A DNA stretch of 40,428 bases. Source: Nitrosomonadales bacterium. Its GTDB lineage: Bacteria; Pseudomonadota; Gammaproteobacteria; Burkholderiales; Gallionellaceae. Below the pieces are notes generated by a model. The model worked only from the letters and a program-made list of their open reading frames with translations, did not search any database and had not been told where the DNA came from. Shown one piece after another: positions 7,882 through 20,292 of the stretch. How positions within the stretch are numbered: position 1 is the first letter of the stretch; every line of letters begins with the position of its first letter. The DNA lies in the NCBI GenBank assembly GCA_016218475.1, contig JACREB010000102.1, positions 1 through 40,428 on the forward strand, in the 5' to 3' direction. Both the position numbers and the translations under genes were made by a program.

Positions 7882-7886
7882 GGTTT

Positions 7887-9284
7887 TTAGCCGTTAGACG
7901 TTAGTAGCGGGTCGTTAGTTAAATCATGCGGCTGCATCGACACAATCTCGCCCGCAACCGCATCGTACCGGTGCCGCAAGATAGAGCCATCGAGCAGCAT
8001 TGCAATGGCAGTCTCAATGACCGGAAGAGGCAGCAGAAACCATTCTCTAGGTCGGAATGGCTTGCCGAATCGATCCATAATTTCGATGTCCAGTCGCGCG
8101 TCGGCAAAAAACCGGTGCATCAGGCTCTCAAATTTATTGGCATTGAGATTGATCGCATCGTAACTGCGGACGGGATGAACCGGAGCCATCAGGAAAGTCG
8201 GATCGTCCTTCGCCCCGCGAATGCGGTCTTCAAATGAACCCGTGGTGAAACCGATCTTGAAAAGCTGGCCGTCAAGTTTAGCAATTTCTGGCGATGGCGG
8301 GAGGCTCCGCACGATGTAAATGCACCCTGTGATGCGCTCATTAACTTGAAGCTCGCGTAGCGACTCAGGGATTAACAATTGATTTTCTCGTTCGCTTCCT
8401 CGCCCGCTTGCGGGAGAGGATTGAGGTGAGGGCGCTCCAGGATGAGGGGAACGGGCATTTTCATCGACAGGGGTGGTAACTTTTCTATGCCCGTTCGGCC
8501 CGGCTTCCGTGGTGAAGGTCGGCGCAGGATCGAACAGCGGTCCGGCATTCGGCTCGGACAGGCGACGACCGCTGGGGTCTTTGTAAAGCTCCGTCGCCAA
8601 TGATCTGAGCAGGTTTTTCCCCTCGGTGCCGTTCTCGAAAATCAACCTGAGCCGCGCATTGCGCTTTCCGTTGCGGATATGGGGATCGTTTACTTCGGCG
8701 ACATAGACCATCACACCATGCAGTATGAAAAAACCTCCGGCCTCGATCTCCTGTTCGTTGGCAAACTTCATGCTCTTGCGCTTGCCCGTCACCAGATCTG
8801 CAGCAGCCTGATCGAACAGCGGTTTGAACTGCGCGAAATCCCCGCACGGTTTGCGCTCGGATATTTTGTCCGGGCGTGCTGCTGCCGGGCGGGCATGGCG
8901 GAAGGTAAAAATATCCTCGGCTGACTCGGAAAGTAACTCGTCATCCAGATCAAGAATATCGTCCAAGCTGGCCGGTGGCAGCGCTTCGGTTGCTTGGGCC
9001 AACAACCCATGGCGATCAAACTCTCTCAATTGCTCAGTGATGGCTGGATTTTCCCGGTAGGTTTTAAGTCGCACTTGCAGGGTGCGCTCGTTTACCGACA
9101 CTCTCTCGCCCGCTTGACCCTCGCCCGGTGCGTAATGTTGGCGATCAACAAACACGTTGATCTCTTCGAATGCCTGCTGAATGCGCACCGCCTCGGTGCT
9201 GGTGTTGACCGGGCGCGGCTTCACATCCAGCAAACCCAAGTCGTCACTCTCGGCCAGCAACTCGTCCAGTGTCAGGCGTGCCAT
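7887..9284 (-). CDS. GIY-YIG nuclease-family protein with in-frame repeat insert
   Basis: About 465 residues from ATG 9284 (MARLTLDELL); the longer frame to 9383 is repeat-encoded and was not used. The N-terminal 250 residues are Asp/Glu-rich and of no family I can name. The C-terminal part from GCIYIVRSL through LFKIGFTTGSFEDRI to RFFADARLDI and PREWFLLPL is a T5orf172/GIY-YIG-like nuclease domain. Between them (about residues 260-314) lies a Ser/Pro-rich linker with SPQSSPASGRGSERE and ESLRELQV, encoded by a mobile repeat. Proteins of this type often sit beside restriction-modification genes; here it follows a broken one. DNA cleavage is inferred from the fold only. Confidence 0.75.
   Translation of the reverse strand: MARLTLDELLAESDDLGLLDVKPRPVNTSTEAVRIQQAFEEINVFVDRQHYAPGEGQAGERVSVNERTLQVRLKTYRENPAITEQLREFDRHGLLAQATEALPPASLDDILDLDDELLSESAEDIFTFRHARPAAARPDKISERKPCGDFAQFKPLFDQAAADLVTGKRKSMKFANEQEIEAGGFFILHGVMVYVAEVNDPHIRNGKRNARLRLIFENGTEGKNLLRSLATELYKDPSGRRLSEPNAGPLFDPAPTFTTEAGPNGHRKVTTPVDENARSPHPGAPSPQSSPASGRGSERENQLLIPESLRELQVNERITGCIYIVRSLPPSPEIAKLDGQLFKIGFTTGSFEDRIRGAKDDPTFLMAPVHPVRSYDAINLNANKFESLMHRFFADARLDIEIMDRFGKPFRPREWFLLPLPVIETAIAMLLDGSILRHRYDAVAGEIVSMQPHDLTNDPLLTSNG
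8341..8494. repeat. Hairpin-ended mobile repeat, copy 2 (inside GIY-YIG gene)
   Basis: Left end ttaacttgaagctcgcgtag matches the left end of the hscB copy. The middle contains tcgcccgcttgcgggagagg. The right end is a hairpin, acgggcat (8451-8458) with atgcccgt (8487-8494). It is read in the same orientation and frame as in hscB, giving SLRELQVNE here and SLREFLVDH there. Confidence 0.75.
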
Positions 9285-9304
9285 GATTTTATTCCATTTC
9301 CAAA

Positions 9305-9754
9305 TCAAAAGCGGCGTAGGGTGGGCACGCCGTTGTGCCCACGCGGATTCAATACCGCGTGGGCAGATAAAATCCCTGCCCACCCTACCCGGCTAAAAAC
9401 TTGTCGCACCGGCGAAGGCCGGTGTCCAGTTAATTGAAGTGGGGTAAGCAGGCAAACCTCCTCACCGTCGGTCGCCAACAAGAAACGCGGAGAATGTTTC
9501 TTCGCCAGAGGATCGTCCGCCATGGCATCCACCGTCGCAGCGGCCTGCCCTTTTTCGGCGACACGGAAAAACAATTTATTTTTCCAGAGCAGCTCGCCCG
9601 GCTCCTTGGCATGATTGGTCGTGCCCTGCCGCAGCTTCGTTACCGCGGCTTTCGGCGCGTCGTAAATTTCTAAAAAACGGAAGATAAACGTGTCTGCATC
9701 AAACGGCGCTTCCACCAGTTCCTTGAGCGATGATTCGATTTCGGCGATGTTCAT
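9305..9754 (-). pseudogene. N-terminal fragment of a type IIG/class I DNA methyltransferase-like gene
   Basis: The first ~105 residues (MNIAEIESSLKELVEAPFD, DAPKAAVTKLRQGT, RVAEKGQAAATVDAM, SPRFLLATDGEEV) resemble the start of large restriction-methylase proteins that are normally several hundred to over a thousand residues long. After LLTPLQLTG the frame continues only into repeat DNA (a gccggtgtccag-type repeat and a REP pair at 9316-9388) and stops. The helicase/methylase/nuclease parts are absent. I recognise this from the N-terminal pattern only; a profile search is needed for the exact family. Confidence 0.6.
9316..9388. repeat. REP pair, gtgggcac family
   Basis: gtagggtgggcacgccg / tgtgcccacgcgg (9316-9345) is followed in inverted orientation by ccgcgtgggca / tgcccaccctac (9355-9388). 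Both halves are hairpins and together form a larger inverted repeat (BIME-like). It ends the methyltransferase fragment. Confidence 0.85.
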
Positions 9755-9782
9755 GTTGGGCGTATCACCAGTTTTCGCTGTT

Positions 9783-10709
9783 CTAGCACGTACGCCGGTT
9801 TATACCATGGCTCACGCACAAGCCGACTCGGTGCTGCTGAAGTGTCAGCAATTGGGATTCCCAAGAGCGTACCCCATCGCGCACATAGCAGTCGAATCCG
9901 CGTGGGCACAAAAACGTGCCCACCCACACGGCTGCGGAGTTCAATAAATCAGCAATTTCTTTGGCGATTTCCTCGACGGTATGTGTTGCCGTACTACGGG
10001 CAACCTTATCGGCCAGAGATGGACTGAAATTGACGACCTGTTGTTTTGTGATGTTGTGCCAGATTGGTAACAGAATTTGCTCACCAGATACAGTACGTGT
10101 AACGATTCCATCTAGCTCATAGTTCGTCCAGCCCTTGGCTATAAAGGAGGACGAAAGCACTACCAGACCAACGCGGCTATTTGCGAGGCCATGATCAATT
10201 TTTTGCCGGAGACTATCTCCTATCCGAAGCGTGAATTCATCATACCAAACGTCCAACCCTTCCTTTATGAGGGCGTTTGCCAAAGGCCTTACAATTTCAT
10301 CTTTATCTTCTGATGCATGAGAGATAAAAACATCATGAGTTTGACCGCCTGGGGCAACAGATGGTGGAACGTTGTCCCGAACAAGACTTGGCACAGAAGA
10401 CAGTGATGCTTCTCTAATTTCAGGTAAGGCACCAGGAAGAACTCTTACAGAAGCACGGGTACTACCTTGTAACCCTTGCATATCAATGGCAACGTGCCAG
10501 TGCCCAGAGTTTGGGATTTGAAGCCTAAGTGGTGATTGCTTTGCTAATCCGCCGATATAGTTATGACGTCGACCATTTTTGTAGTCGGAGAAATTAGAGT
10601 TGTCCATCAAGCGGACATTTGCTCCACTTGTAAGAGTTCCCTCTACGATTTCTCCACTTTTCCTTTGCCCCAAGTCGTTATGTATGAATTGCAATTTTAG
10701 ATACTCCAT
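9783..10709 (-). CDS. DUF1883-TIR domain protein with repeat-derived tail
   Basis: 308 residues. Residues 1-92 match the DUF1883 pattern (YLKLQFIHNDLG, NVRLMDNSNF, GRRHNYIGG, LQIPNSGHWHVAIDMQG). Residues 124-260 form a bacterial TIR domain: HDVFISHASEDKDEIVRPLA, DVWYDEFTLRIGDSLRQKI, LVVLSSSFIAKGWTNYELDG, with E198 as the presumed catalytic glutamate of NAD-cleaving TIRs. Likely a sensor-TIR defence effector: the DUF1883 part would bind a ligand and the TIR would consume or convert NAD. No partner gene is adjacent. The last ~48 residues, after EIADLLNS, come from a REP and a RAYT 3'-end fragment, so the native C-terminus is lost or extended. Confidence 0.8.
   Translation of the reverse strand: MEYLKLQFIHNDLGQRKSGEIVEGTLTSGANVRLMDNSNFSDYKNGRRHNYIGGLAKQSPLRLQIPNSGHWHVAIDMQGLQGSTRASVRVLPGALPEIREASLSSVPSLVRDNVPPSVAPGGQTHDVFISHASEDKDEIVRPLANALIKEGLDVWYDEFTLRIGDSLRQKIDHGLANSRVGLVVLSSSFIAKGWTNYELDGIVTRTVSGEQILLPIWHNITKQQVVNFSPSLADKVARSTATHTVEEIAKEIADLLNSAAVWVGTFLCPRGFDCYVRDGVRSWESQLLTLQQHRVGLCVSHGINRRTC
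9870..9931. repeat. RAYT 3'-end fragment plus REP hairpin
   Basis: taccccatcgcgcacatag (from 9870) repeats the RAYT coding end at 10832-10854 with one mismatch in 23 bases (peptide YVRDGV in both). It is followed directly by a REP hairpin ccgcgtgggcac / gtgcccaccca (9898-9931). It forms the C-terminal codons of the TIR gene. Confidence 0.75.
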
Positions 10710-10740
10710 GTAAGGCGTAACATTTTGGCTCAGTCAAGTG

Positions 10741-10771
10741 GTAAGGTGGGCACGTCTTTGTGCCCACGCGG
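10741..10771. repeat. REP hairpin downstream of RAYT
   Basis: gtaaggtgggcacg tcttt gtgcccacgcgg: one REP of the gtgggcac family, 7 bases from the RAYT stop, between the RAYT and TIR genes. Confidence 0.85.
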
Positions 10772-10777
10772 TCAGCC

Positions 10778-11320
10778 TCAATCATACCCCAGCACCATAC
10801 TATCCATCCCACCAGCCCAGTCATGCGCATATACCCCATCGCGCACATAGCGGTGAAATGTCGAATGCGGCCAATCAACCGCACGTTGCACATGCTCGTG
10901 TTTAACCGGGTTAAAATGAATGTAATCGACATGGCGGGCAAAATCATTTTCATCGCGGATTTGGTGTTCCCAGAATCGCCGTTGCCAGATTGTCGATTCG
11001 CGATGTTTGAGTTTTGATGCAGTCACCCAGTCGGCACGACGATAATTTTCTCTACAAACCAATGAAACCGCTCGTTTGATTTTCATCCAACGGGTGGAGA
11101 AATCGGCATCACCGTCAGGTAATGTCCACACGCAATGTAAATGGTCAGGCAACAATACCCATGCATCAATGACGAAAGGACGCGCCACACGCACCGTTTC
11201 AATCGCGGCGCGCAATGCGTCACGAATCGCTTTGTCACACAGAATCGGCTGCCGCCGGTAAGCGACCACCGTAAAGAAATAGCTTGAACCAGCAGCCGTT
11301 GCGCGGCGATAACGTGACAT
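10778..11320 (-). CDS. REP-associated tyrosine transposase (RAYT, TnpA-REP)
   Basis: 180-residue single-strand-processing transposase related to IS200/IS605 TnpA (Y1_Tnp). Seen: the HUH-type metal site PDHLHCVW (H60, H62) and the catalytic tyrosine Y133 in HVDYIHFNPVKH, followed by the family signature DWPHSTFHRYVRDGVY. It is bracketed by REP hairpins of one family (10741-10771 and 11346-11376) in opposite orientation, the classic REPtron layout. Presumed to bind and move REPs. The start ATG at 11320 gives the conserved SRYRRA N-terminus. Looks intact. Confidence 0.93.
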   Translation of the reverse strand: MSRYRRATAAGSSYFFTVVAYRRQPILCDKAIRDALRAAIETVRVARPFVIDAWVLLPDHLHCVWTLPDGDADFSTRWMKIKRAVSLVCRENYRRADWVTASKLKHRESTIWQRRFWEHQIRDENDFARHVDYIHFNPVKHEHVQRAVDWPHSTFHRYVRDGVYAHDWAGGMDSMVLGYD

Positions 11321-11345
11321 GGTTGGTTACTCTAAAATGTTGCAT

Positions 11346-11376
11346 CCGCGTGGGCACAAGGACATGCCCACCCTAC
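11346..11376. repeat. REP hairpin upstream of RAYT
   Basis: ccgcgtgggcac aagga catgcccaccctac: same REP family in inverted orientation to 10741-10771, 25 bases before the RAYT start codon. Confidence 0.85.
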
Positions 11377-11409
11377 ACGCTTTTGTGCCTACGCAATCAG
11401 CGTCGTGAT

Positions 11410-11562
11410 TCAAAACTTTTCCTTCTTTACTCTTTTTCGCGCTGTCGCTTCGGGGAGCTGCTTGTAGTTTTCTTTGCTGGCAATGCGCCTCCCGGATTTT
11501 TTCTCCAGGTCGCGCCGCGCACGCCCTAATTTTATGGAGTCAGGCTCGGAATGCCTTTTCAT
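11410..11562 (-). CDS. Small basic protein, possible tail of a DinD/BRO-type protein
   Basis: Fifty residues from ATG 11562, very basic, with SIKLGRARRDLEKKSGRRI and ASKENYKQLPE. The pattern resembles the C-terminal segment of phage antirepressor (BRO) or DinD-like proteins, but I cannot assign it securely. It lies 19 bases after the toxin gene. It may be the remainder of the dinD-like gene whose N-terminus is at 12241-12531, with the toxin-antitoxin pair in between, or an independent small gene. Confidence 0.35.
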   Translation of the reverse strand: MKRHSEPDSIKLGRARRDLEKKSGRRIASKENYKQLPEATARKRVKKEKF

Positions 11563-11581
11563 GAAAGGCCGCGTATGCGTG

Positions 11582-11929
11582 CTATCCCAAAATTTGCGCG
11601 AGCATCTGGCGCAGTGTGTGTTGGTCGCGGGGAGAAAAACTGCCCATGCGGCGGATAACAAGTGCTTGTTCGAGTGTGGTCAAGACTGGTTTGGCGAAGG
11701 ACGGTTTGAGCAGCCCGGCGGCTTGCCAGTCAACGACCGGGAAGGCGGCAAAATCCGGCGCGGTGTGCGCCTGGCTGGTAATTGCCATGATGAGCAAGTC
11801 CGGGCGGTTGGTGTGGTAAGCGGGGCTGGAGATAACTACAGCAGGTCGTTTTTTGCTCTCTGCCTGATTGGTGAACGGAAACGGCACGATGACAATCTCG
11901 CCAAACTGGTAAATGGATTCGGATGCCAT
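11582..11929 (-). CDS. PemK/MazF-family toxin
   Basis: 115 residues with the MazF/PemK core: GEIVIVPFPFTNQAESKKRPAVVIS near the N-terminus, LLIMAITSQ and LTTLEQALVIRRMGSFSPRD later. In the family this is an mRNA endoribonuclease. It follows the antitoxin gene by 18 bases. No clear ribosome site precedes ATG 11929, in line with translation coupled to the antitoxin. Confidence 0.85.
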   Translation of the reverse strand: MASESIYQFGEIVIVPFPFTNQAESKKRPAVVISSPAYHTNRPDLLIMAITSQAHTAPDFAAFPVVDWQAAGLLKPSFAKPVLTTLEQALVIRRMGSFSPRDQHTLRQMLAQILG

Positions 11930-11947
11930 TGGGGTAAGAGTGGGGAA

Positions 11948-12148
11948 TTACAGCGCGTCGTACACTGTGTCGGCATCGTTGTCCCAGATGGCGGCGAAGC
12001 TGGCTACGGAAGTTTGAGTTGCGGCCTGTACCAGCGCGCGGTCATTCTCACGGCTGCGTAAAAAATCCACGAAGTCGGTTACTTCTGCCAGACGTGTCGG
12101 CGGCAGTTGCAGAATTTTCTCGATCAACAAATGTTCGGCGGTGTTCAT
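11948..12148 (-). CDS. Antitoxin of the PemK/MazF-type pair (DUF2281-like)
   Basis: 66 residues: MNTAEHLLIEKILQLPPTRL, AEVTDFVDFLRSRE and a C-terminal ASFAAIWDNDADTVYDAL tail. This short helical domain plus acidic/aromatic tail is typical of DUF2281/VapB-like antitoxins paired with PemK toxins. A good AGAGG lies before ATG 12148. Likely neutralises the toxin and represses the pair. Confidence 0.75.
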   Translation of the reverse strand: MNTAEHLLIEKILQLPPTRLAEVTDFVDFLRSRENDRALVQAATQTSVASFAAIWDNDADTVYDAL

Positions 12149-12240
12149 GGCTACCTCTCAGAGAGAACGGGTGCAATGGATTATACGGAAAGCGGGCGGT
12201 TGTACAAAATGAGTTAAGGCAAACATGTGCATGTCGTTCG

Positions 12241-12531
12241 TCAATTCACCCGCAAGGGGTAGCGGGTGAGCATGAGATCAGGGACTTCTTTCTCCGCTCC
12301 TTTGGGCATGGCAATCGTTTTGTTGACGTCAACAAAATGATCCGCAACCGGATGCCCCGACACTTCGCACGATGTTTGTGCCTTGCTGATGACGGTCGTA
12401 AAGTTCCGCCATTCATCATAACCGAGCGGGTGTTGAAGGTCGCGGGCAAGCCAGAATTCGATACCGTTTTCCGCTTGCTGTGCGTGCGCTTCAAAGGTGT
12501 CGGTGAGTGTATGAATGAGATCGGTTTTCAT
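12241..12531 (-). pseudogene. DinD-like (DNA-damage-inducible protein D) N-terminal fragment
   Basis: 96 residues with the DinD/BRO-type start: TFEAHAQQAENGIEFWLARD, LGYDEWRNF, ISKAQTSCEVSGH, DHFVDVNKTI, EVPDLMLTRY. Full-length relatives are about 275-300 residues and continue after TRY with ACYLIAQNGDP; here the frame changes to PLRVN and stops. The breakpoint coincides with acccgcaaggggtagcgggt at 12247-12266, which looks like repeat DNA. Start ATG 12531 overlaps the HEPN gene by 4 bases (ATGA-type). Confidence 0.7.
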
Positions 12532-12920
12532 GGAAAATTTGCCAAGATTTTATCTGTCCAGGCAAGCACACGGGAGGTATACGAAATCGCCTGCTCGGGG
12601 GAGACGAGGGGCATCGGTTCGTCGTCATAACGAAACTCGACTGCATAAGGCGTCAGGCGGCGCAGCTCTTCTCCCTCCAGCGGAATGTTGACACCCGCAT
12701 CCGCCAGTGTGCCGGACAGTTCCTCCAGGTCGTGAGTGCGGCGAAACTCCAGCCCATGCAGAAACATGACCGCTTTCAACGCTTTTTCGACTGCCTGCTG
12801 GGCATGAAAGCAAGCTACGGCAAAGTCTACCGTTGCGGAATCCAGTAATGCGCGAAATGCGGCCTCATCGCGCCGGGCCAGACGCATGAAGCGCTCGGCC
12901 TCTTCACGCTGCGGTGTCAT
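12528..12920 (-). CDS. HEPN-domain protein (partner of MNT nucleotidyltransferase)
   Basis: 130-residue helical HEPN protein (PF05168-like). Seen: AERFMRLARRDEAAFRALL, FACFHAQQAVEKALKAV-type core (QAVEKALKA at 42-50), FRRTHDLEEL (59-68), and a C-terminal AISYTSRVLAWTDKIL helix. HEPN/MNT pairs act as toxin-antitoxin modules in which the HEPN protein is usually the RNase. The canonical Rx4-6H motif is not clear here, so RNase activity is uncertain. The gene overlaps the MNT gene by 17 bases. Confidence 0.8.
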   Translation of the reverse strand: MTPQREEAERFMRLARRDEAAFRALLDSATVDFAVACFHAQQAVEKALKAVMFLHGLEFRRTHDLEELSGTLADAGVNIPLEGEELRRLTPYAVEFRYDDEPMPLVSPEQAISYTSRVLAWTDKILANFP

Positions 12921-13239
12921 ATAACACCTTTCCTTCTATTTTCGCCCAGTACGGAACCGTGCCCGGCACTTGGCTGCGACGATCAAACTCTGCCTCCGAA
13001 TAAAGCAGCAAATCCACGCCTACGCCCACGCGCCCGATGGCTGCTTTCAAACGCAGATACTCCGCCGCCTTGTCCGGCAAGTCCCGCTCGATGACCATTA
13101 AATCGAGATCAGAATCCTTGTCCGCCTCTCCGCGCGCCTGTGAGCCGAATAAAATTACCCGTGCAGGCGAAGCTACGTTTGCGACGATGCGATCCACGGC
13201 AGACTGCAATTTTTCTGGTGTCAACGAATTGTTCTGCAA
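12904..13239 (-). CDS. MNT-type minimal nucleotidyltransferase (HEPN/MNT pair)
   Basis: 111 residues with the Pol-beta nucleotidyltransferase motif FGSQARGEADKDSDLDLMV (31-49; D44 and D46) and a third acidic position in GVDLLLY (D76). In MNT/HEPN modules this protein inactivates the HEPN partner by adding nucleotides. It starts with TTG at 13239; the start is supported by AAGGAGAG seven bases upstream and the absence of a better ATG. Confidence 0.85.
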   Translation of the reverse strand: MQNNSLTPEKLQSAVDRIVANVASPARVILFGSQARGEADKDSDLDLMVIERDLPDKAAEYLRLKAAIGRVGVGVDLLLYSEAEFDRRSQVPGTVPYWAKIEGKVLYDTAA

Positions 13240-13257
13240 AATTGCTCTCCTTGTTTA

Positions 13258-13373
13258 AACCCAGATTGTCCATTAGGCCATAAAACGCCTGTTTTGAATG
13301 GGTTTCTAATGGAATCCATTAGAGATTTTCCTTATTTTTCAATGAGGTGTTGTTCTAATGAACAATCTGGGTT
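13258..13373. repeat. 116-bp palindromic element upstream of MNT/HEPN
   Basis: Ends aacccagattgtccattag and ctaatgaacaatctgggtt are inverted complements with one unpaired base. The interior has further pairing, with cattag/ctaatg motifs. No other copy is visible in the window. It sits just upstream of the MNT start and may carry its promoter or be a small mobile repeat. Confidence 0.75.
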
Positions 13374-13383
13374 AAATATATCC

Positions 13384-13414
13384 ATCATGCCCCAGCACCG
13401 CACTATCAACCGCA
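13384..13414 (-). repeat. RAYT 3'-end fragment (second remnant)
   Basis: The minus strand encodes VDSAVLGHD, matching the RAYT end MDSMVLGYD at 10778-10800; at the base level atcatgccccagcacc is shared with one mismatch. It lies exactly where the nucleotidyltransferase fragment stops. Confidence 0.6.
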
Positions 13415-13606
13415 CTAGTTCATTCGAACATCAGCATCCTGCGTGAGATACGGTGTATCACTTTTCGGTACCGGGATTTTAAAATAATCGACCCAGAATG
13501 TCAGGGATTGTCCCCCAGCCAAAATGGCTGGACGAGTTGCTTTTTGAAGCGCGTGGAAAAATTTTGGGAGGTCGCTCGGTTGGAACCAATCGTAACCGGC
13601 AACCAC
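13415..13606 (-). pseudogene. Truncated nucleotidyltransferase-like gene
   Basis: 63 residues from GTG 13606: DWFQPSDLPKFFHALQKA, then RPAILAGGQSLTFWVDYF and SDTPYLTQDADV. The GGQ...(T/K)xDxD pattern is that of AbiEii-like or related nucleotidyltransferase proteins, which are normally over 180 residues. The frame ends in VRMN directly after the catalytic aspartates, where a RAYT 3'-end fragment begins. Presumably inactive. Confidence 0.6.
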
Positions 13607-13609
13607 GGC

Positions 13610-13837
13610 TTAGCCAGGCATGCGAACGATGCGAAATTCAGCGGGATTAACCTCTGGAATGAGCCTGGCACGAGACACCGCTTTTGCAACAGACAGGTGG
13701 CTGACCACCTTGCTGAATGCGGCTTGGCGAGCAGATTTGCTGTGGGAGGATTGTGCCGCTATTATTTTTGCAAGATGCGCGCGTACCTTGGCGGGCTTCG
13801 CTTCATCTACAACGTTATTGGCAAGTGCTTTTTTCAT
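13610..13837 (-). CDS. Hypothetical small protein upstream of the truncated nucleotidyltransferase
   Basis: 75 residues, Ala/Lys/Ser-rich, helical (MKKALANNVVDEAKPAKVRA, HLSVAKAVSRARLIPE). I do not recognise it. It ends 3 bases before the GTG of the nucleotidyltransferase fragment, so the two probably formed one operon; a DNA-binding or antitoxin-like partner is one possibility suggested only by position and size. Confidence 0.5.
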   Translation of the reverse strand: MKKALANNVVDEAKPAKVRAHLAKIIAAQSSHSKSARQAAFSKVVSHLSVAKAVSRARLIPEVNPAEFRIVRMPG

Positions 13838-13883
13838 AGGTGCATACTAGCACGTTAAAACTTAAGCATTCAATACCGCTGGT

Positions 13884-14340
13884 TTGTCGAGGCTTCTGAA
13901 TTCCTTGCCCAAAGGCCACACCATCGCGAACGTCCGGTTGGATTCTGCGGGTTATCAGGCGGGCATCTTCAATTACTGCGAAGATACCGGCAAAACCTTT
14001 GCGGTTGGCGGACGCTTGTGCGGCATCGCCATCCGCGACGATGCGTGGTTGTTGCCCCTTCAGCGGCTTTACAAACACGGCCTACCCCTTGCGGGTGAAT
14101 TGACCAACGAATGGAAAAAACGCGGCGTGAAAGAGCAGCGCGAATACTCCATCCTCACCGCTGGAATCAGCCGCGCCACTTTCGGCATGACGCTCGCCGA
14201 GTACATCCGCACTTCACAGGCTTTGATGAATTCGAGATTCTGCGTGGCGGGAGCAATGTTGCCTTTGCGAAATTCGTCATGGATGACAATACCCGCTTCA
14301 GCCAAGTGGCCGATCATGGGCATGTATTGGTTCATAAAAC
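13884..14340. mobile_element. Rearranged remnant of an IS1380-like transposase
   Basis: The plus strand at 13905-14070 encodes LPKGHTIANVRLDSAGYQAG and IFNYCEDTGKTFAVGG, typical of the central part of IS1380-family transposases. The minus strand at about 14335-14210 encodes MPMIGHLAEAGIVIHDEFRK and NLEFIKACE, which in intact elements comes directly before that part. The two halves are therefore in opposite orientation: the element was inverted internally and lost its ends. No terminal repeats were found. The open frame 13884-14510 (+) is a chance fusion of this material. Confidence 0.65.
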
Positions 14341-14470
14341 TTTCAATCGCGGGAATTGGGTGGTCTGCTCCCCGTTCTGTCCGCCGAGAGTGGCGATATA
14401 TTGTGAATCGGATGACGAGAGTTATGCTTCCAGCAACAGCGCCTTGCAGCCAGCTTGCTGAAAGTGGATG

Positions 14471-14854
14471 TCAGCCGCCAAAGCTGCCTGAATATCGCGA
14501 TGACGTATGACCACAAAAGACACATGTATGGCTATCGAAGGCCTCGTGGTCGGCTTGATCCGCGACGGGCGGATGCCGTAAAGAATCTCCGAGGGTAGCG
14601 CCATCGGAAGAGATGCAAGGTTCGCGCAGCATTATCGCCAGCGCTTTTGCCAGGCGCCCATGCTTTAACGCCAGCGATTCGCCGATGCGGAGCGCCGCCG
14701 TGCCGTGGTCGCCATCGCGCCATGCCTGAATAGCCCGGCAGGCCAGATTTTGCGCCCGTGTTTCGGCGCGGATGGCGAGGGTGAAATCGCAGCCGCAGCG
14801 CGGGCATAACGGCGTATCGCCCAGGCGGCTGCGGCAGGCCGGGCAGCACTCCAT
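14471..14854 (-). CDS. Zinc-ribbon protein of the Hsp70 operon
   Basis: 127 residues. The first 22 hold a zinc ribbon CPAC...CPRCGCD. A helical part follows (AETRAQNLACRAIQAWRDGD, AALRIGESLALKHGRLAKAL) that looks like a TPR-type hairpin. The C-terminus after about residue 85 (including HTCVFCGH) runs into the region next to the IS remnant and may not be original. It starts 2 bases after the Hsp70 stop, clearly the last gene of the chaperone operon. Possible role: adaptor or client-recognition factor; this is inferred from position only. Confidence 0.65.
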   Translation of the reverse strand: MECCPACRSRLGDTPLCPRCGCDFTLAIRAETRAQNLACRAIQAWRDGDHGTAALRIGESLALKHGRLAKALAIMLREPCISSDGATLGDSLRHPPVADQADHEAFDSHTCVFCGHTSSRYSGSFGG

Positions 14855-14856
14855 AG

Positions 14857-16596
14857 TCAGGCTTCCAGATAATAGAGCAGGTCGGCGAGAGTGTCCATGG
14901 CCTGCTGCAACGCTTCATCCGTCTTGTCCATGGCGTCCTTGACCGCTTCGATGCCGTTCACCAGATCTTCGGCATCTTCCGCGCCCGCTTTTTCCAGCAG
15001 GCGTTCGGCCTTTTCCACCAAAGCGACAGCCTCCACCCGGTGGCGGCGGTTTTCAGTCGCGGGGCCGGGCGCTGTCGCTTCCTCGCCGAACAGGGAGCGG
15101 ACGCGCGCTCTCGCTTCGTCGAGCTTGTCATTTTCGAAGCGGGTCATGGCGTTGTTGATGGTGATGGAGTGTTCGAGACCGGTGGCCTTTTCGCGCGAGG
15201 TGACGTGGAGGATGCCGTCCACATCAATCGAAAAGGTGGTGACGATGGGGTTGCCGGAAGGTGCGTCGCGCAGGCCTTCGATGGTGAACTGCCCGATTTC
15301 GATGTTGTTCAGGGCATCACGATCTTCGCCCTGGTAAACGCCGACATCCACCTTGTGCTGTCCGTCAAAGCTGGTGAAAAAAACCTCGCTCTTGGATACT
15401 GGTATCGGTGTGTTTTTGCGGATCAGCGGCACAAAACAGTAGGGGTAAATCTCGCCGTCCATGTCGCCGATGGCTGAGGTGCCAAAGGTATAGGGGGTGA
15501 CGTCCACGAGGACGGCGGAGGTTTTTGTGCCGCCGATGACCCCCGCCTGAATCGCGGCGCCCATGGCCACACACAAATCAGGATTCAGTTCGCCACGCGG
15601 CTGCATGCCCAGTTCTTCTTCCAGGCGGCGCGCCACCAGGGGCGTTCGCGTGGCGCCGCCGACCAGCAGGATTTCGTCGATGTCGGAAACGGTGAGATGC
15701 GCGCCGGAAAGGGCGACATGGGTCGCGATCAGGGTTTCGGCGATGTATGGTTCTATCATCGCCTCGTAGTCATCGCGCGAGATTTCCAGCGACAGATGCA
15801 CCGGTGCGCCCTGATGTTCCAGCAGATATTCCTCCATGATCGTTGCGAAGGGGCGGTCGGAAAGGGCGATCTTGGCGGCTTCGGCGGCGCGTTGCAGGCG
15901 CGCCATGGCGGTGGCCGACTGGCGGGCATCGACACCGTGTTTTTGCTTGATGTGTTCGAGGGCGAAGTCGATGATCTTCTGGTCGAAGTCGTCTCCGCCC
16001 AGATGATTGTCGCCGTGGCTGGCGAGCACTTCCACCACGTCGCCTTCCAGGTTGACCACGGAAACGTCGAAGGTGCCGCCGCCCAGATCGTAGACCAGCG
16101 CCGTGCGCGCGCCCTCGTGCCCGCTCTCGTAAGCCAGCGCGGCGGCGGTCGGTTCGTTGATGATGCGCACCACTTCCAGCCCCGCGATTTCGCCCGCTTC
16201 GCGGGTGGCCTGGCGTTGCGCATCGGAGAAATAGGCGGGCACGGTGATGACGGCCTTGTGTACCGGTTGCCCCAGATGATCCTCGGCGATTTTTTTCAGG
16301 CGGCGCAGGATCATGGCGGATATTTCCTGCGGGCTGTAATCCTTGTCGCCCATTGGAACGCGGGTGTATTCGCCCATGCGCCGCTTGATGGAGCGCACGG
16401 TGCGTTCCGGGCGCAGCACATACTGGTTTTTGGCAGATTCACCGATCAGCAGCTCGCCGTCGTCGGCGATTCCCACCACCGAGGGCAGGATGCGCGCCCC
16501 TTCAGAAACCGGGATCACTTCCACGCGCCCGTCGCGTATCACCGCCACCTCGGAATTGGTGGTGCCCAAATCTATGCCGACTATAATTTCGTTCAT
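14857..16596 (-). CDS. DnaK-like Hsp70 of the TPR/J-like chaperone operon
   Basis: 579-residue Hsp70 with complete ATPase signatures: GIDLGTTNS (7-15), VPAYFSDAQRQAT (119-131), NEPTAAALA (147-155), [10 protein letters not shown] (170-179), VGGATRTPLV near 315. The substrate domain is recognisable (VDVTPYTFGTSAIGDMDGEI, IRKNTPIPVSKSEVFF) and the lid is short. It is neither HscA nor the housekeeping DnaK (shorter, no EEVD-like tail). Flanked by its own GrpE-like factor (5-base gap) and a zinc-ribbon gene, so it likely works as a dedicated machine with the TPR protein. Confidence 0.93.
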   Translation of the reverse strand: MNEIIVGIDLGTTNSEVAVIRDGRVEVIPVSEGARILPSVVGIADDGELLIGESAKNQYVLRPERTVRSIKRRMGEYTRVPMGDKDYSPQEISAMILRRLKKIAEDHLGQPVHKAVITVPAYFSDAQRQATREAGEIAGLEVVRIINEPTAAALAYESGHEGARTALVYDLGGGTFDVSVVNLEGDVVEVLASHGDNHLGGDDFDQKIIDFALEHIKQKHGVDARQSATAMARLQRAAEAAKIALSDRPFATIMEEYLLEHQGAPVHLSLEISRDDYEAMIEPYIAETLIATHVALSGAHLTVSDIDEILLVGGATRTPLVARRLEEELGMQPRGELNPDLCVAMGAAIQAGVIGGTKTSAVLVDVTPYTFGTSAIGDMDGEIYPYCFVPLIRKNTPIPVSKSEVFFTSFDGQHKVDVGVYQGEDRDALNNIEIGQFTIEGLRDAPSGNPIVTTFSIDVDGILHVTSREKATGLEHSITINNAMTRFENDKLDEARARVRSLFGEEATAPGPATENRRHRVEAVALVEKAERLLEKAGAEDAEDLVNGIEAVKDAMDKTDEALQQAMDTLADLLYYLEA

Positions 16597-16601
16597 GGTT
16601 G

Positions 16602-17252
16602 CTATCCCTTTTTGTTAACGATAACTTCGGCGGCGCGCAACAGCTCGCCGCCATGAAAAAATCCGCGCCGCGCTTCGCGCAATACCGCGCCATCCGGCTT
16701 GCCGGCCACGGTTTCAGCGCCCACCGCACGCATCGTGCGTGGGTCGAGCGGTTGCCCGATCACTTCGAGCGGGCGCACCCGATAACCGGCGAGCGCATCG
16801 TCCAGGCGCTGGAGCGTGAGTGTCAGACCTTGCCCCAGGCTTCCGGCGAAGCGCGTTTCGCCGGGCGCCAGGCGGGCGAAAAAAGAAGGTCTGTGCGTTG
16901 CGGCGACGTCCGCGCCCGCCTGCAAGCGGTCGCGCAAATCGAGCATGTCCAGCAGCAGCCCGCGCTCGGCTTTTTGCCGGACTGCGGCGACCTGTTCCCG
17001 CGCCAGATCCAGATCGCGGTTGAGACGCTCATTCTGTTCGCGCAGGGCATCGCCGAAGTTGCGCATCTCTTCCAGCATGCTCTTGAACTGGCGCGATTCC
17101 AGGCGGATTTCATTTTTCAGCACAGCCATTTCGGCGAGCAGGGTATGCAGGTCGATGACGTTATCGCCGCCTTCATCGCTCTCCTCACAGGTTTCCATGA
17201 AGGCGCGAAATTCCTCGACCAGGCGTTCTTTTTCATCGGGGTCGAGCGACAT
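16602..17252 (-). CDS. Divergent GrpE-like nucleotide exchange factor
   Basis: 216 residues from ATG 17252 (a GTG directly before it is an alternative). The N-terminus is acidic, a long coiled coil follows (LLAEMAVLKNEIRLESRQFK to [18 protein letters not shown]), and then a small beta domain with PLDPRTMRAVGAETVAG and a C-terminal GELLRAAEVIVNK, which correspond to GrpE's FDP and VxPAxVxV motifs. GrpE would exchange ADP on the neighbouring Hsp70. Different enough from housekeeping GrpE to suggest specificity. Confidence 0.8.
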   Translation of the reverse strand: MSLDPDEKERLVEEFRAFMETCEESDEGGDNVIDLHTLLAEMAVLKNEIRLESRQFKSMLEEMRNFGDALREQNERLNRDLDLAREQVAAVRQKAERGLLLDMLDLRDRLQAGADVAATHRPSFFARLAPGETRFAGSLGQGLTLTLQRLDDALAGYRVRPLEVIGQPLDPRTMRAVGAETVAGKPDGAVLREARRGFFHGGELLRAAEVIVNKKG

Positions 17253-17264
17253 CACTTCGCGCCC

Positions 17265-17450
17265 AACGGGCGTGGCAAGCAGCCACCCCTGATGATGAAA
17301 CTTGCCATGCCCGTTTCCCCCTCCCCATCCCTCCCCCGCATGAAGCCCCTCTCTCTAACTCTCTCCCTCAAGCGGGAGAAAGGACAAACGTGAAAAACAA
17401 CCCTCAATTCTGGGGAGGGGGACAAGGTCTCGCTTCGCGAGTTTCATGTT
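17265..17450. repeat. Hairpin-ended mobile repeat, copy 3 (between J-like and GrpE-like genes)
   Basis: Hairpin aacgggcgtggcaag (17265-17279) with cttgccatgcccgtt (17301-17315). Then a pyrimidine-rich body with ctctctaactctctccctc, and the end ctcgcttcgcgagtttcatg. Opposite orientation to the hscB copy. Its last bases contain the TGA stop of the J-like gene, so insertion probably trimmed that protein. Confidence 0.75.
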
Positions 17451-17728
17451 AATACCCGGCGCAAGCGCCGCTCGTCCACGCGGCGCGGCTGGAACCCGGC
17501 GACAACCGCATCCAGAACATCTTCCGGCGACGGGACGGATTTGTCGAACAGCGCGTGGCTCAGCCGTCCCCGCACGCTGGACACGGCTTCATAGGCGGCG
17601 CGCACACGCTCGAAACGCTTGCGGTCGCGTTCGGGCGGGCAGTTGCGTATCGCCGCCAGATAAGCGGCGCGGATAGCCTCATCGTCCGCCGTGACGGGGA
17701 CGCCGAGGATGCGGTAGGGATCAGTCAT
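17444..17728 (-). CDS. J-like protein lacking the HPD motif
   Basis: 94 residues from ATG 17728, which overlaps the TPR stop by 8 bases (ATGACTGA). N-terminal DPYRILGVPVTADDEAIRAA and YLAAIRNCPPERDRKRFERV and RAAYEAV follow the J-domain helix I-III pattern, but the HPD tripeptide is replaced by CPP/ERD. It therefore should not stimulate ATP hydrolysis in the standard way. The C-terminal part (LFDKSVPSPEDVLDAVVAG) is not known to me. The stop lies in an inserted repeat. Probably an adaptor between TPR protein and Hsp70. Confidence 0.75.
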   Translation of the reverse strand: MTDPYRILGVPVTADDEAIRAAYLAAIRNCPPERDRKRFERVRAAYEAVSSVRGRLSHALFDKSVPSPEDVLDAVVAGFQPRRVDERRLRRVLT

Positions 17729-20201
17729 CGAACAAGTCCTTTTGAATTTCCGGGTGTGGGCGAGATTTTCCGCGCGGCGGCGGTGGCGGCAGATTAATCG
17801 GTGGCGGTAAAAAATCGGTCGGCTGCTGCCTCTTGATCCGCGCTTCATCCTCCACCATCATGTCGATCAAGCGGCGAGTGAAATCTTTCTGGTTGCCGCC
17901 GAATTGTTGTTTCAGATCGTTAAACGCCCGCTTGCCTATCGCCCTGCGCACCATATCGAGGAGGGCTTGTTCGCCTTTCATGGCCAAAAGCAATTCGAAC
18001 ATTGCGCGCGGGCTACCCGGCATATCACCAAATGTATCGAACGGGTCACCATCCGAAAATGGCATGTCATCCATAGGCGGTTCCAACAGGGTGAGGATGC
18101 GCTGGGCGGTGCGCTGGTCGCCCTGTTTTTTGGCGTCTTTGTACGCTTTATCCAGCGCATGCATATCCCGATCCGGAATGTTGTACGAGTCGTTTCCGTA
18201 ACGCGCCATCACTCTGAAATAAACAAATACCGGGCGTCCCGGCCAGCGTTTGAGCGCCGCCTCGGCGTAAGTAAAAAGCAGGTCTTCTTCATCGGAGCGC
18301 TGCCAGGCTTCGCACACCAACAGATGTTCCGCTTCGGAGAATCTGGACGTGGCCGCGCGCTTGAGCGAAGCGCGCAAAGGGGCAAGTGCGGCGCGTATCG
18401 CTTTTTTCCCATCCCGCGCTTCGTTCAAAGCCCGCGCCAGCACAACGACGGTTTCTGTAGCAGGCGTTGCCGCCAGATCGATCCCGGCGCACAGGAGCAA
18501 GGTTTTCGGGTTTGCGCCTACCTTGTCCGCTTCCAGAAGCAATTGGAATGCGCCCATCAGGGTGCCGCCAAAATCAGCCATCGCCTCGCGCAGTCTGGCG
18601 TTGGTGTCATCCGTTTCATCTCCGGCGAGCGCGCGCAGCAATTTGAGCGTAGCCCGATCCGATGGCGCCCGCAGCCATTCTTCCGCAGCATCCAGTTCCT
18701 TGCGCGCAGCGGGATTATTGCCCGCCTTGATCTGTTTGCGCGCGTGGGAAAAAAGAGCGTGAGCGATCAACTCCCGCACCTGCGGGTTGATGGGATCGAG
18801 CTCCAGCACCTGCTTCGCCAGCCCCACGGCCTTCTTGAACGCCTTGCCGGCCAGCGCGACCTCAACCGCTTCGAGCAAAACACCGGCGTCTTTGGGGAAA
18901 CGGGGCAGAGCTTTGTCGAGATAAGCGCGCGCCTGCGCGAGATCGTTACCGGAACGCAGCGCGCGGATCACCGTCAGGTAGCTGTCCCGGTCTTCGGGGT
19001 CGAGCTCCAGGCTTTTCTTGAGATACTCAAAGGCGTGTTTATCGAGCCCACCTTTGCGACTGGGATAAAGATCGGCCGCGTGGCGCCAGATTAAAGCGGC
19101 GCGCAGCCTTTGCTCGGGCCTGGCGCCCAGAAGTTCAGCCATCGCGCGCCAGTCAGTCCCGGCATCTTCAAGCTCGCCTAAAAGTTCGCCAGCCAATGCC
19201 AAAATATGCTTCATATTTTCTATTGGCAACTTGGCGTAGTCTGGATTTTTTAGTAAGCGTCTACCCAAGTGTGGCAACAGGCGATGATAAAGGCCGATAA
19301 ACTTGTCCTCGGGCATGGCGCGCCGGTAGCGCAGCAGGAGATCGATAAGAGGAATGGCGGCGGGCGCATCTCCCAGTTTGGCGAGTTCCAGCAGCAGCGG
19401 GCGCAGGGTGTCCGGGCAACCCTTGATATCCAGCACCATTTGCCGTCCGCCTTCGTCGAGACCGCGCAACGCGGCCAGCCACTCGCCCTCGGGCAGCACG
19501 GCGGCGCGCAACACCGCCATCAGCCGCTCGAACGGGCCGTCTGACGGCAGGCGGGCTATCGCCGCCTGCGCCGCTTCAGCATCGGTTTGCAGCAGCGCCA
19601 GCGCCTTGAGGGCCGGCTTCAGGTCGCGATAGGGAGAGCGGAACGGAATCATCTGGAGCTGTTCTCCCAGCGCCACAAAATCTCCCCGATGATACGCCGC
19701 CAATGCTTCCAGCACGGGTGCGCGGTGGCGCAGCAGTGCGCCGTCTGTGGGCAGACCGGCCAGCGTGTTGTCCGGCATCGCCAGCACGGTCGCGGCGAGG
19801 CGCGTTTCCAGTTCGGCGCGCGTCGCGTCGGGCAAGTTTTTATCGGCCAGAAGCCTGAACATCTCCCCCAACTCTCCCGCCTGCAAAAGCCAACCCAGAT
19901 AAGGTTCCTCGGCGAGCGGTTTGCCGCACAGTTGAGTGCGGTTGCGCCACAACACCAGAGCTTCCTTGACCATGCCCTTGCTGGCCAGGTCGCGGGCGCG
20001 CCCGGCGTAACACGACGCCAAACCATCAATCCAGTTTGGCTGGCGTTCGCGCTTGATTAGTTCCTTGTAAAGCTCAATCGCTTCCTTGTGGCGCGACGCG
20101 CCCAATGCCGCCTCGGCTTCCGCCGCCAACGCGACGCTATCCATGGCATGGGGAGAAACAGGTTTGGAGTGGGGTTTGTGTGGCTTGGTTTTGCGTGACA
20201 T
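17721..20201 (-). CDS. Large TPR protein, first gene of the Hsp70 operon
   Basis: 826 residues, helical throughout, with TPR-like repeats: AAEAEAALGASRHKEAIELY near the N-terminus and clear canonical repeats around 395-480 (AFEYLKKSLELDPEDRDSYL, AVGLAKQVLELDPINPQVRE). The N-terminus is basic (MSRKTKPHKPHSKP), with no signal peptide or membrane segment, so it is cytosolic. The C-terminus has a proline stretch (FLPPPINLPPPPP) and ends KDLFDD; such an acidic end could be a docking peptide. Probably the client- or partner-binding scaffold of the system. Confidence 0.85.
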   Translation of the reverse strand: MSRKTKPHKPHSKPVSPHAMDSVALAAEAEAALGASRHKEAIELYKELIKRERQPNWIDGLASCYAGRARDLASKGMVKEALVLWRNRTQLCGKPLAEEPYLGWLLQAGELGEMFRLLADKNLPDATRAELETRLAATVLAMPDNTLAGLPTDGALLRHRAPVLEALAAYHRGDFVALGEQLQMIPFRSPYRDLKPALKALALLQTDAEAAQAAIARLPSDGPFERLMAVLRAAVLPEGEWLAALRGLDEGGRQMVLDIKGCPDTLRPLLLELAKLGDAPAAIPLIDLLLRYRRAMPEDKFIGLYHRLLPHLGRRLLKNPDYAKLPIENMKHILALAGELLGELEDAGTDWRAMAELLGARPEQRLRAALIWRHAADLYPSRKGGLDKHAFEYLKKSLELDPEDRDSYLTVIRALRSGNDLAQARAYLDKALPRFPKDAGVLLEAVEVALAGKAFKKAVGLAKQVLELDPINPQVRELIAHALFSHARKQIKAGNNPAARKELDAAEEWLRAPSDRATLKLLRALAGDETDDTNARLREAMADFGGTLMGAFQLLLEADKVGANPKTLLLCAGIDLAATPATETVVVLARALNEARDGKKAIRAALAPLRASLKRAATSRFSEAEHLLVCEAWQRSDEEDLLFTYAEAALKRWPGRPVFVYFRVMARYGNDSYNIPDRDMHALDKAYKDAKKQGDQRTAQRILTLLEPPMDDMPFSDGDPFDTFGDMPGSPRAMFELLLAMKGEQALLDMVRRAIGKRAFNDLKQQFGGNQKDFTRRLIDMMVEDEARIKRQQPTDFLPPPINLPPPPPRGKSRPHPEIQKDLFDD

Positions 20202-20292
20202 GAAATTCCGGCATAAAAATTCGGTGTGGGATTCTATCGCGAATCACGGTTGCAGCCAATCGTGCAACATCCGGAGGACAGGATAAATTTGG

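Follow-up and report, generated by a model that had tools for sequence, protein, structure and literature searches.

Besides the DnaK-DnaJ-GrpE system of E. coli, private Hsp70 systems have been described in bacteria, such as HscA-HscB and HscC-DjlB/DjlC, in which an Hsp70 has a dedicated J partner and which are sporadically distributed (PMC8215388). For both HscA and HscC, independence from GrpE is reported or expected, and HscC, of these two, is tied to UV and cadmium resistance. SglK of Myxococcus xanthus has a GrpE-like partner, GrpS. It is an extra DnaK-type Hsp70 with no C-terminal tail and with special functions, which can replace E. coli DnaK, and the available part of its description mentions no TPR, GrpE or J partner (PMC8265645). 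In this paper, we describe a five-gene Hsp70 operon in a 40,428-nucleotide (nt) stretch of DNA from a Nitrosomonadales bacterium of the Gallionellaceae (contig JACREB010000102.1, positions 1 to 40,428; hereafter the window), which encodes a tetratricopeptide repeat (TPR) scaffold, a J-like protein, a divergent GrpE, an Hsp70 and a small zinc-ribbon protein. The operon resembles the HscA and HscC systems in its private Hsp70, dedicated J partner and sporadic distribution, and differs from them in having its own GrpE, a GrpE-contacting loop on the Hsp70 and a separate Hsp70 clade; it shares with SglK, with which it was compared by description, an extra Hsp70 lacking the C-terminal tail. Its parts are of known kinds and their combination is new: in the open-licence PMC literature we found no description of this gene set, of a bacterial J protein without the histidine-proline-aspartate (HPD) triplet that has its own Hsp70, or of a chaperone or TPR protein on the sliding clamp. 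Tentatively, we read the operon as encoding an accessory Hsp70 machine for which the DNA sliding clamp is the anchor.

The minus strand of positions 14471-20201 is occupied by five open reading frames (ORFs), translated in the order TPR, J-like, GrpE, Hsp70 and zinc-ribbon (Table 1). A preliminary description of the sequence had noticed this set, with coordinates that hold, and had stated that most genes overlap or are separated by 2-5 bases. This is the case for three of the four junctions (an 8-nt overlap of the TPR and J-like genes, a 5-nt gap between GrpE and Hsp70 and a 2-nt gap between Hsp70 and zinc-ribbon); the J-like and GrpE genes are 188 nt apart. The spacer is absent from the relative L010, in which the J and GrpE genes overlap. 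The J-like gene is counted here from the ATG overlapping the TPR stop, and its longer listed ORF starts at 17848. The zinc-ribbon protein matches no significant Pfam family and has no homologue of known function in the PDB (one match, E 0.16); its counterparts in relatives are 81-160 residues long and can be aligned across about the first 80-90 residues. Sigma-70-like sites 5' of the TPR gene are uninformative.

The same five genes, in the same order and on one strand, were found in 28 of 47 non-duplicate TPR loci from at least two classes, the window included; because the order recurs in this way, the set is not a chance arrangement, and the conserved order bears out the proposal that the genes form one operon. 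Among the other 19 loci, L025 and L086 carry TPR-J-GrpE-Hsp70 up to a contig end, L091 has no GrpE, five have the TPR and J genes, and eleven have the TPR gene only (in one of them, L093, a J-like piece is truncated where the contig ends), so that the genes stay together across genomes even though 16 of the 47 loci have no nearby Hsp70. The counts leave out an ordinary grpE-dnaK locus (L014) and a TPR fragment of G513 (L062); L092, on the same contig as L010, was dropped from all counts except the 48 of the shuffling test below, and the short loci L020-L062 were replaced by the longer L063-L101, except that L025, already a whole contig, was kept. Most of the genomes compared are drafts or metagenome-assembled genomes (MAGs), with the exception of G249 (2 contigs, 100% complete).

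A scan of named genomes gave at least nine loci. Among the matches listed, seven have all five genes in order, one is cut by a contig end so that it begins within the J gene, and one is L014; Gallionella, Rubrivivax, Thiogranum and an Ectothiorhodospiraceae bacterium are among the sources, all of them MAGs, and the nearest of the listed loci is L010, a Gallionella MAG. In a profile search with the TPR protein, which covered the window's phylum, the gene was detected in 11 of the 369 genomes searched from the class and in 27 of the 398 from the phylum (own genome counted), as well as in 3 of 121 relatives, own genome counted and all three in the window's genus, and 1 of 13 genomes in the order of one matching genome, namely that genome itself. 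Twelve of the 27 positives in the phylum carry a TPR gene without a linked Hsp70. The operon is patchily distributed and has probably been spread by horizontal transfer.

The operon Hsp70 matches the Pfam HSP70 family with 517 bits over residues 5-572, and it shares with E. coli DnaK the Hsp70 architecture, the GrpE-contacting loop and the residues R167, Q378, L391, D393 and P419 (DnaK numbering). On the other hand, it scores below the NCBIfam cut-offs for canonical DnaK (576 bits versus 648 for PRK00290, 559 versus 822.55 for prok_dnaK) and has no long C-terminal tail. In a FastTree phylogeny of 65 sequences, 29 of them DnaK-type and rooted on E. coli HscC, the sole HscC used, all 30 operon Hsp70s fall into one clade with a support of 0.997 and with no DnaK, HscA or HscC inside; L025 (a fragment), L008, and L079, whose Hsp70-like match is unrelated and far from the TPR gene, were left out of the tree. 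Membership of HscA was rejected on the score (420.7 versus 708.55 bits), on the presence of the GrpE loop and on a separate, higher-scoring HscA gene in the window at 851-2740, identified by alignment and tree; membership of HscC was rejected since the operon clade excludes the single E. coli HscC at the root and the GrpE loop is kept. All six operon Hsp70s compared have this loop, while the two HscA and the HscC set beside them lack it or have a shorter version, which fits the private GrpE. The operon does carry its own exchange factor, as had been proposed: the GrpE scores 65.6 bits against a Pfam cut-off of 25.8, and falls below the cut-off of every NCBIfam GrpE model listed.

It had also been suggested that this Hsp70 is distinct from HscA and from a housekeeping DnaK lying out of view; the tree agrees, and so do the other Hsp70s of the carrier genomes. 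The genome of the window is a 2.3-Mb draft in 221 contigs, 86% complete, and its contig C213 breaks off 60 residues into a DnaK that lies after a grpE. Twenty-four further genomes have the Hsp70 operon (G075 in a version without GrpE), and each of the 23 tested (G366 was left out) encodes at least one second DnaK-type Hsp70 that outscores the operon copy and a second GrpE that scores far above the operon GrpE. These data exclude that the operon Hsp70 is the only DnaK of the organism. In one locus, another grpE-dnaK pair of DnaK type lies divergently beside the operon (L007:987-3778).

The J-like protein has a J fold by several measures, i.e. a Pfam DnaJ score of 31.1 bits (cut-off 27.8), J domains as the top Foldseek matches (best E 8.9e-4), and an AlphaFold model with J-type helices and a mean predicted local distance difference test score (pLDDT) of 77.8. 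Its alignment with E. coli DnaJ has no gap around the HPD triplet, which it pairs with PPE; CPP, considered at first as the HPD equivalent, was replaced by PPE after this alignment. The lack of HPD noted in the preliminary description is general and not random: the HPD columns of 31 operon J proteins read PPE (21), PPD (4), SPD (2), SPE (2), PAE (1) and PPS (1), so that HPD and the histidine are each found in 0 of 31, an acid at the D position in 30 and [PS]P[ED] in 29. The five J proteins from loci without Hsp70 have diverged further. On the Hsp70 side, R167, Q378, L391, D393 and P419 are kept in 30 of 30 operon proteins and N170 in 28. In the E. coli pair, H33 of DnaJ forms a hydrogen bond to the L391 carbonyl of DnaK, P34 contacts P419, and D35 contacts R167 and Q378 (PMC8215388). 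These patterns suggest that docking has been kept and the trigger lost or changed. Unlike DnaJ, the operon J protein also leaves no room for client-binding domains. The mitochondrial import motor offers a parallel in Pam16, a J-like protein that has no HPD and is found beside an Hsp70. In Trypanosoma, Pam16 and Pam18 are reported to regulate mitochondrial DNA replication (PMC11349236). Pam16 is paired with an active J protein, whereas the operon has no second J; the genome has another J-domain gene, on contig C157, and HscB, so a trigger could come from elsewhere.

The TPR scaffold, an addition relative to DnaK-DnaJ-GrpE as is the zinc-ribbon partner, matches Pfam TPR_19 with 30.1 bits. Its AlphaFold model has a mean pLDDT of 85.0 and a predicted template modelling score (pTM) of 0.55, with nearly the whole tail below 50. 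In the PDB it matches TPR superhelices with low TM-scores, all of them designed TPRs or other solenoids, and no homologue of known function. The tail, predicted to be disordered, ends in QKDLFDD, in which QKDLF fits QxxLF. Orthologues end in QRNLFDD, QTDLFDD, QLGLFK, QFELF, QLDLF or QDELF, and, outside the class, in RQLEMDLFE, QQLTLDFDEP, RQLEFDFDD or RQLELDLSLE. The bacterial clamp-binding motif is given as QL[S/D]LF, more generally QxxLF, and in revised form as Q-aliphatic-x-[L/M]-[F/L] and Q-aliphatic-x-[L/M]-x-[F/L]; in PolC it is the C-terminal QLSLF (PMC13254535, PMC12309361). The TPR tails resemble this short motif of the clamp binders PolC, Pol III, Hda, RecB and MutS (PMC13254535, PMC12309361), with the difference that none of these is a TPR chaperone scaffold. 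Furthermore, five-residue forms (QLDLF, QLGLF, QKDLF) and six-residue forms (QLEMDL, QLEFDF, QLTLDF) interchange among the orthologues, some of which are only about 24-36% identical to the TPR protein of the window.

By our own pattern (Q..[LM]F or Q[LVI].[LMFI].[LF] in the last 15 residues) the motif occurs in 31 of 47 TPR proteins, by the published consensus or QxxLF in 27, and by the strict published form in 19. The controls are nearly empty: each of the three patterns is matched by 3 of 374 neighbouring ORFs, none of the 128 other operon proteins has the motif (J 0/36, GrpE 0/31, Hsp70 0/32, zinc-ribbon 0/29), and 0.22 of 48 tails match after shuffling. The motif does not go with the Hsp70, since 13 of the 16 TPR proteins without a nearby Hsp70 keep it, as against 18 of the 31 with a linked one. 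Two genomes have a pair of TPR paralogues, one with the Hsp70 operon and one without (L067 and L101 in G525; L075 and L100 in G562), and all four have clamp-type tails. The sixteen motif-less tails include three that end basic and two near matches (L095, L096). Just downstream of an operon whose TPR protein has no motif, the protein of L085:13629-14402 itself ends in QLGLF.

A few neighbours point in the same direction. Fourteen loci outside the class have the TPR gene, or the TPR and J genes, and no Hsp70; in six of them mutM or mutL is next to or near the TPR gene. By Pfam (L070 by eye), mutM neighbours the TPR gene directly in L069-L071 and with a single gene between them in L067, and mutL adjoins the TPR gene in L081 and is about 1.7 kb off in L080; by eye, no repair-gene neighbour was seen in the other eight, of which L072 was not looked at and L072 and L075 are short contigs. 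Since L069-L071 belong to one genus and L080-L081 to another, this is a weak hint. The window itself encodes a MutS (21169-23949, 926 residues) with QGDLF at 880-884, near its C-terminus, which we take to be a clamp site. The domain III match of this MutS spans 336 residues for 194 profile positions, and the surplus sequence resembles dispersed repeats inserted in frame.

Mainly on the motif counts, we regard tethering to the sliding clamp as the best reading of this accessory private machine, at a probability of about 0.45. The operon would then be a fourth bacterial Hsp70 system, in which the flexible tail of the TPR protein docks through QKDLF in the ligand pocket of the clamp and the TPR solenoid holds clients, the chaperone or both. 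The J-like protein, translationally coupled to the TPR protein, would dock on the private Hsp70 with its proline facing P419 and its acid facing R167 and Q378, and, having no histidine to contact the interdomain linker, would act as a tether or as a weak, client-gated trigger. The private GrpE would reset the Hsp70, and the zinc-ribbon protein may be an assembly or client factor. Such a machine might run its Hsp70/J/GrpE cycle at sites of replication or repair and remodel or remove proteins at the clamp, such as stalled polymerases, repair factors or blocks. This role is suggested by analogy with DnaK, which, with DnaJ and GrpE for lambda O-P-DnaB, takes apart that complex and replication initiators (PMC8215388).

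Several observations weigh against a clamp tether. The main one is that 13 of the 31 Hsp70-linked TPR proteins have no motif; in one genus, this is true of three of four (L063, L064 and L066, with L065 having it). The QKDLF of the window departs from the strict consensus, which calls for an aliphatic residue at the position of its lysine. The pattern giving 31 of 47 was written after the tails were seen, and the published patterns give 27 or 19. The orthologues are not independent: clustering at 40% identity yields 21 clusters, of which 13 include at least one protein with the motif and 8 have it in all members. The repair-gene neighbours come from few genera, and the flanks of the Hsp70-bearing operons show no consistent repair gene. 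Four of the 31 J proteins have a histidine one place before the aligned triplet, which makes the gapless HPD reading less certain in these four. Finally, the island genes around this copy (see below) suggest a defence setting instead.

The preliminary description had proposed a client-specific cytosolic chaperone with the TPR protein as client receptor. In this case the J-like protein and Hsp70 would fold or activate a client held by the TPR solenoid, and the tail would bind the Hsp70 or another partner instead of the clamp. The large solenoid, the motif-less TPR proteins just counted and the patchiness of the set, as expected if it followed a patchy client, all suit this explanation, and yet we consider it rather unlikely. 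In the flanks compared, no conserved client gene was seen to accompany the operon, whose neighbours vary from locus to locus; the tails fit both published forms of the clamp motif and not one arbitrary sequence; and the motif persists in TPR proteins that have no Hsp70 nearby. The recurrent C-terminal feature, being of sliding-clamp type, points to a DNA-bound clamp and not to a free cytosolic client, so the receptor proposal needs to be changed, and the earlier interpretation as a whole is partly supported.

In the window, the operon lies in an inserted segment of about 12.4 kb, which separates suhB from a SpoU-methylase gene. The genus is represented by 61 genomes, 56 of which gave a suhB match, and the surroundings were compared for the best 30 of 57 matches, among them that of the window: the two genes adjoin in 26 of the 29 other loci and are 12.4 kb apart in the window. 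The three exceptions are L150, cut by a contig end, and L141 and L143, which have other DNA at the site; in the two other carriers of the genus, suhB and the operon are on different contigs. The empty site in these 26 relatives indicates that the operon was acquired here or moved here. L141 comes from a genus relative (G387) that gave no TPR match; a piece near its suhB is 93% identical to window 12255-12532, and the site may therefore be an insertion hot spot. A suhB-like gene also adjoins the TPR gene at L091:3392-4174; this locus belongs to another genus, and the two genes share a strand there instead of diverging. An origin from plasmids was rejected: the TPR protein has no match in PLSDB, and the GrpE has three weak partial matches there.

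The company of the operon raises the question of an anti-phage or plasmid-conflict system on defence islands, in which the chaperone would sense or remodel replication proteins of the invader. Genes for a TIR protein near ThsB and for a PemK-like toxin lie in the inserted segment, together with a HEPN/nucleotidyltransferase pair and gene pieces resembling restriction enzymes (Table 1), and the island part next to the operon covers 7882-14400; in L068 the Gabija pair GajA/GajB (L068:1948-5873) is directly upstream of the operon on the other strand, and toxin-antitoxin-like genes, judged by eye, follow it in L007 and L012. In addition, HSP70 and GrpE genes occur with DnaJ or TPR genes in one neighbourhood in GAP1-N2 GTPase conflict systems, which, unlike the operon, are centred on a GTPase and show this theme mainly in actinobacteria and firmicutes (PMC7159879). 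No GTPase core gene was found by Pfam in the five operon proteins and 11 window neighbours, and the operon has no evident effector. A known anti-phage defence system was rejected, as comparison with the PADLOC models at E 0.01 gave no match for any of the five proteins; out of ten neighbours picked by eye in eight operon loci including the window, four match PADLOC, only from L068 and the window. We consider a defence function improbable.

Table 1. Positions of the operon, its parts and the neighbouring island genes in the window
Feature	Position	Strand	Remarks
TPR scaffold	20201-17721	-	826 aa; AlphaFold: alpha-solenoid 22-706, linker, helices 731-791, disordered tail 792-826
QKDLF, candidate sliding-clamp-binding motif	17730..17744	-	TPR residues 820-824, in disordered tail; followed by DD and stop
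J-like protein, J fold	17728-17444	-	94 aa
PPE codons replacing HPD	17630..17638	-	J-like residues 31-33
J-GrpE spacer	17256..17443	none	188 nt, with inverted repeats
Private GrpE	17255-16602	-	217 aa; GTG start, ATG next at 17252
Hsp70	16596-14857	-	579 aa; without DnaK's long C-terminal tail; own clade
Zinc-ribbon protein, small	14854-14471	-	127 aa; CxxC-CxxC (two CxxC pairs)
Inserted segment including operon	7882..20286	none	~12.4 kb, between SpoU-methylase gene and suhB
T5orf172/MUG113 ORF	7887-9383		island
MmeI-N fragment	9305-9754		island
TIR + DUF1883 protein near ThsB	9783-10709		island
IS200-type transposase match, below cut-off	10778-11320		island
PemK-like toxin gene	11582-11929		island
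Weak Bro-N piece	12241-12531		island
HEPN/nucleotidyltransferase pair	12528-13239		island

A duplicated stress-response DnaK system for redundant general folding is equally improbable: the Hsp70 and GrpE are of DnaK/GrpE type with their contact residues kept, but the Hsp70s form a clade apart from the 29 DnaK-type sequences used and lack the DnaK tail, they are regularly associated with the TPR and J-like proteins, HPD is missing from 31 of 31 J proteins, and the operon is absent from most relatives.

The set adds a further Hsp70 clade, which comes with a private exchange factor, a J partner lacking HPD and a scaffold carrying a sliding-clamp-type motif. Because HPD has been replaced in nature while the Hsp70 keeps R167 and its partners, the role of the histidine can be tested here. 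If the tail of the TPR protein binds the clamp, this would be the first Hsp70 machine known to us to be tethered there, and the function of Hsp70s at replication forks could then be approached in a simple way.

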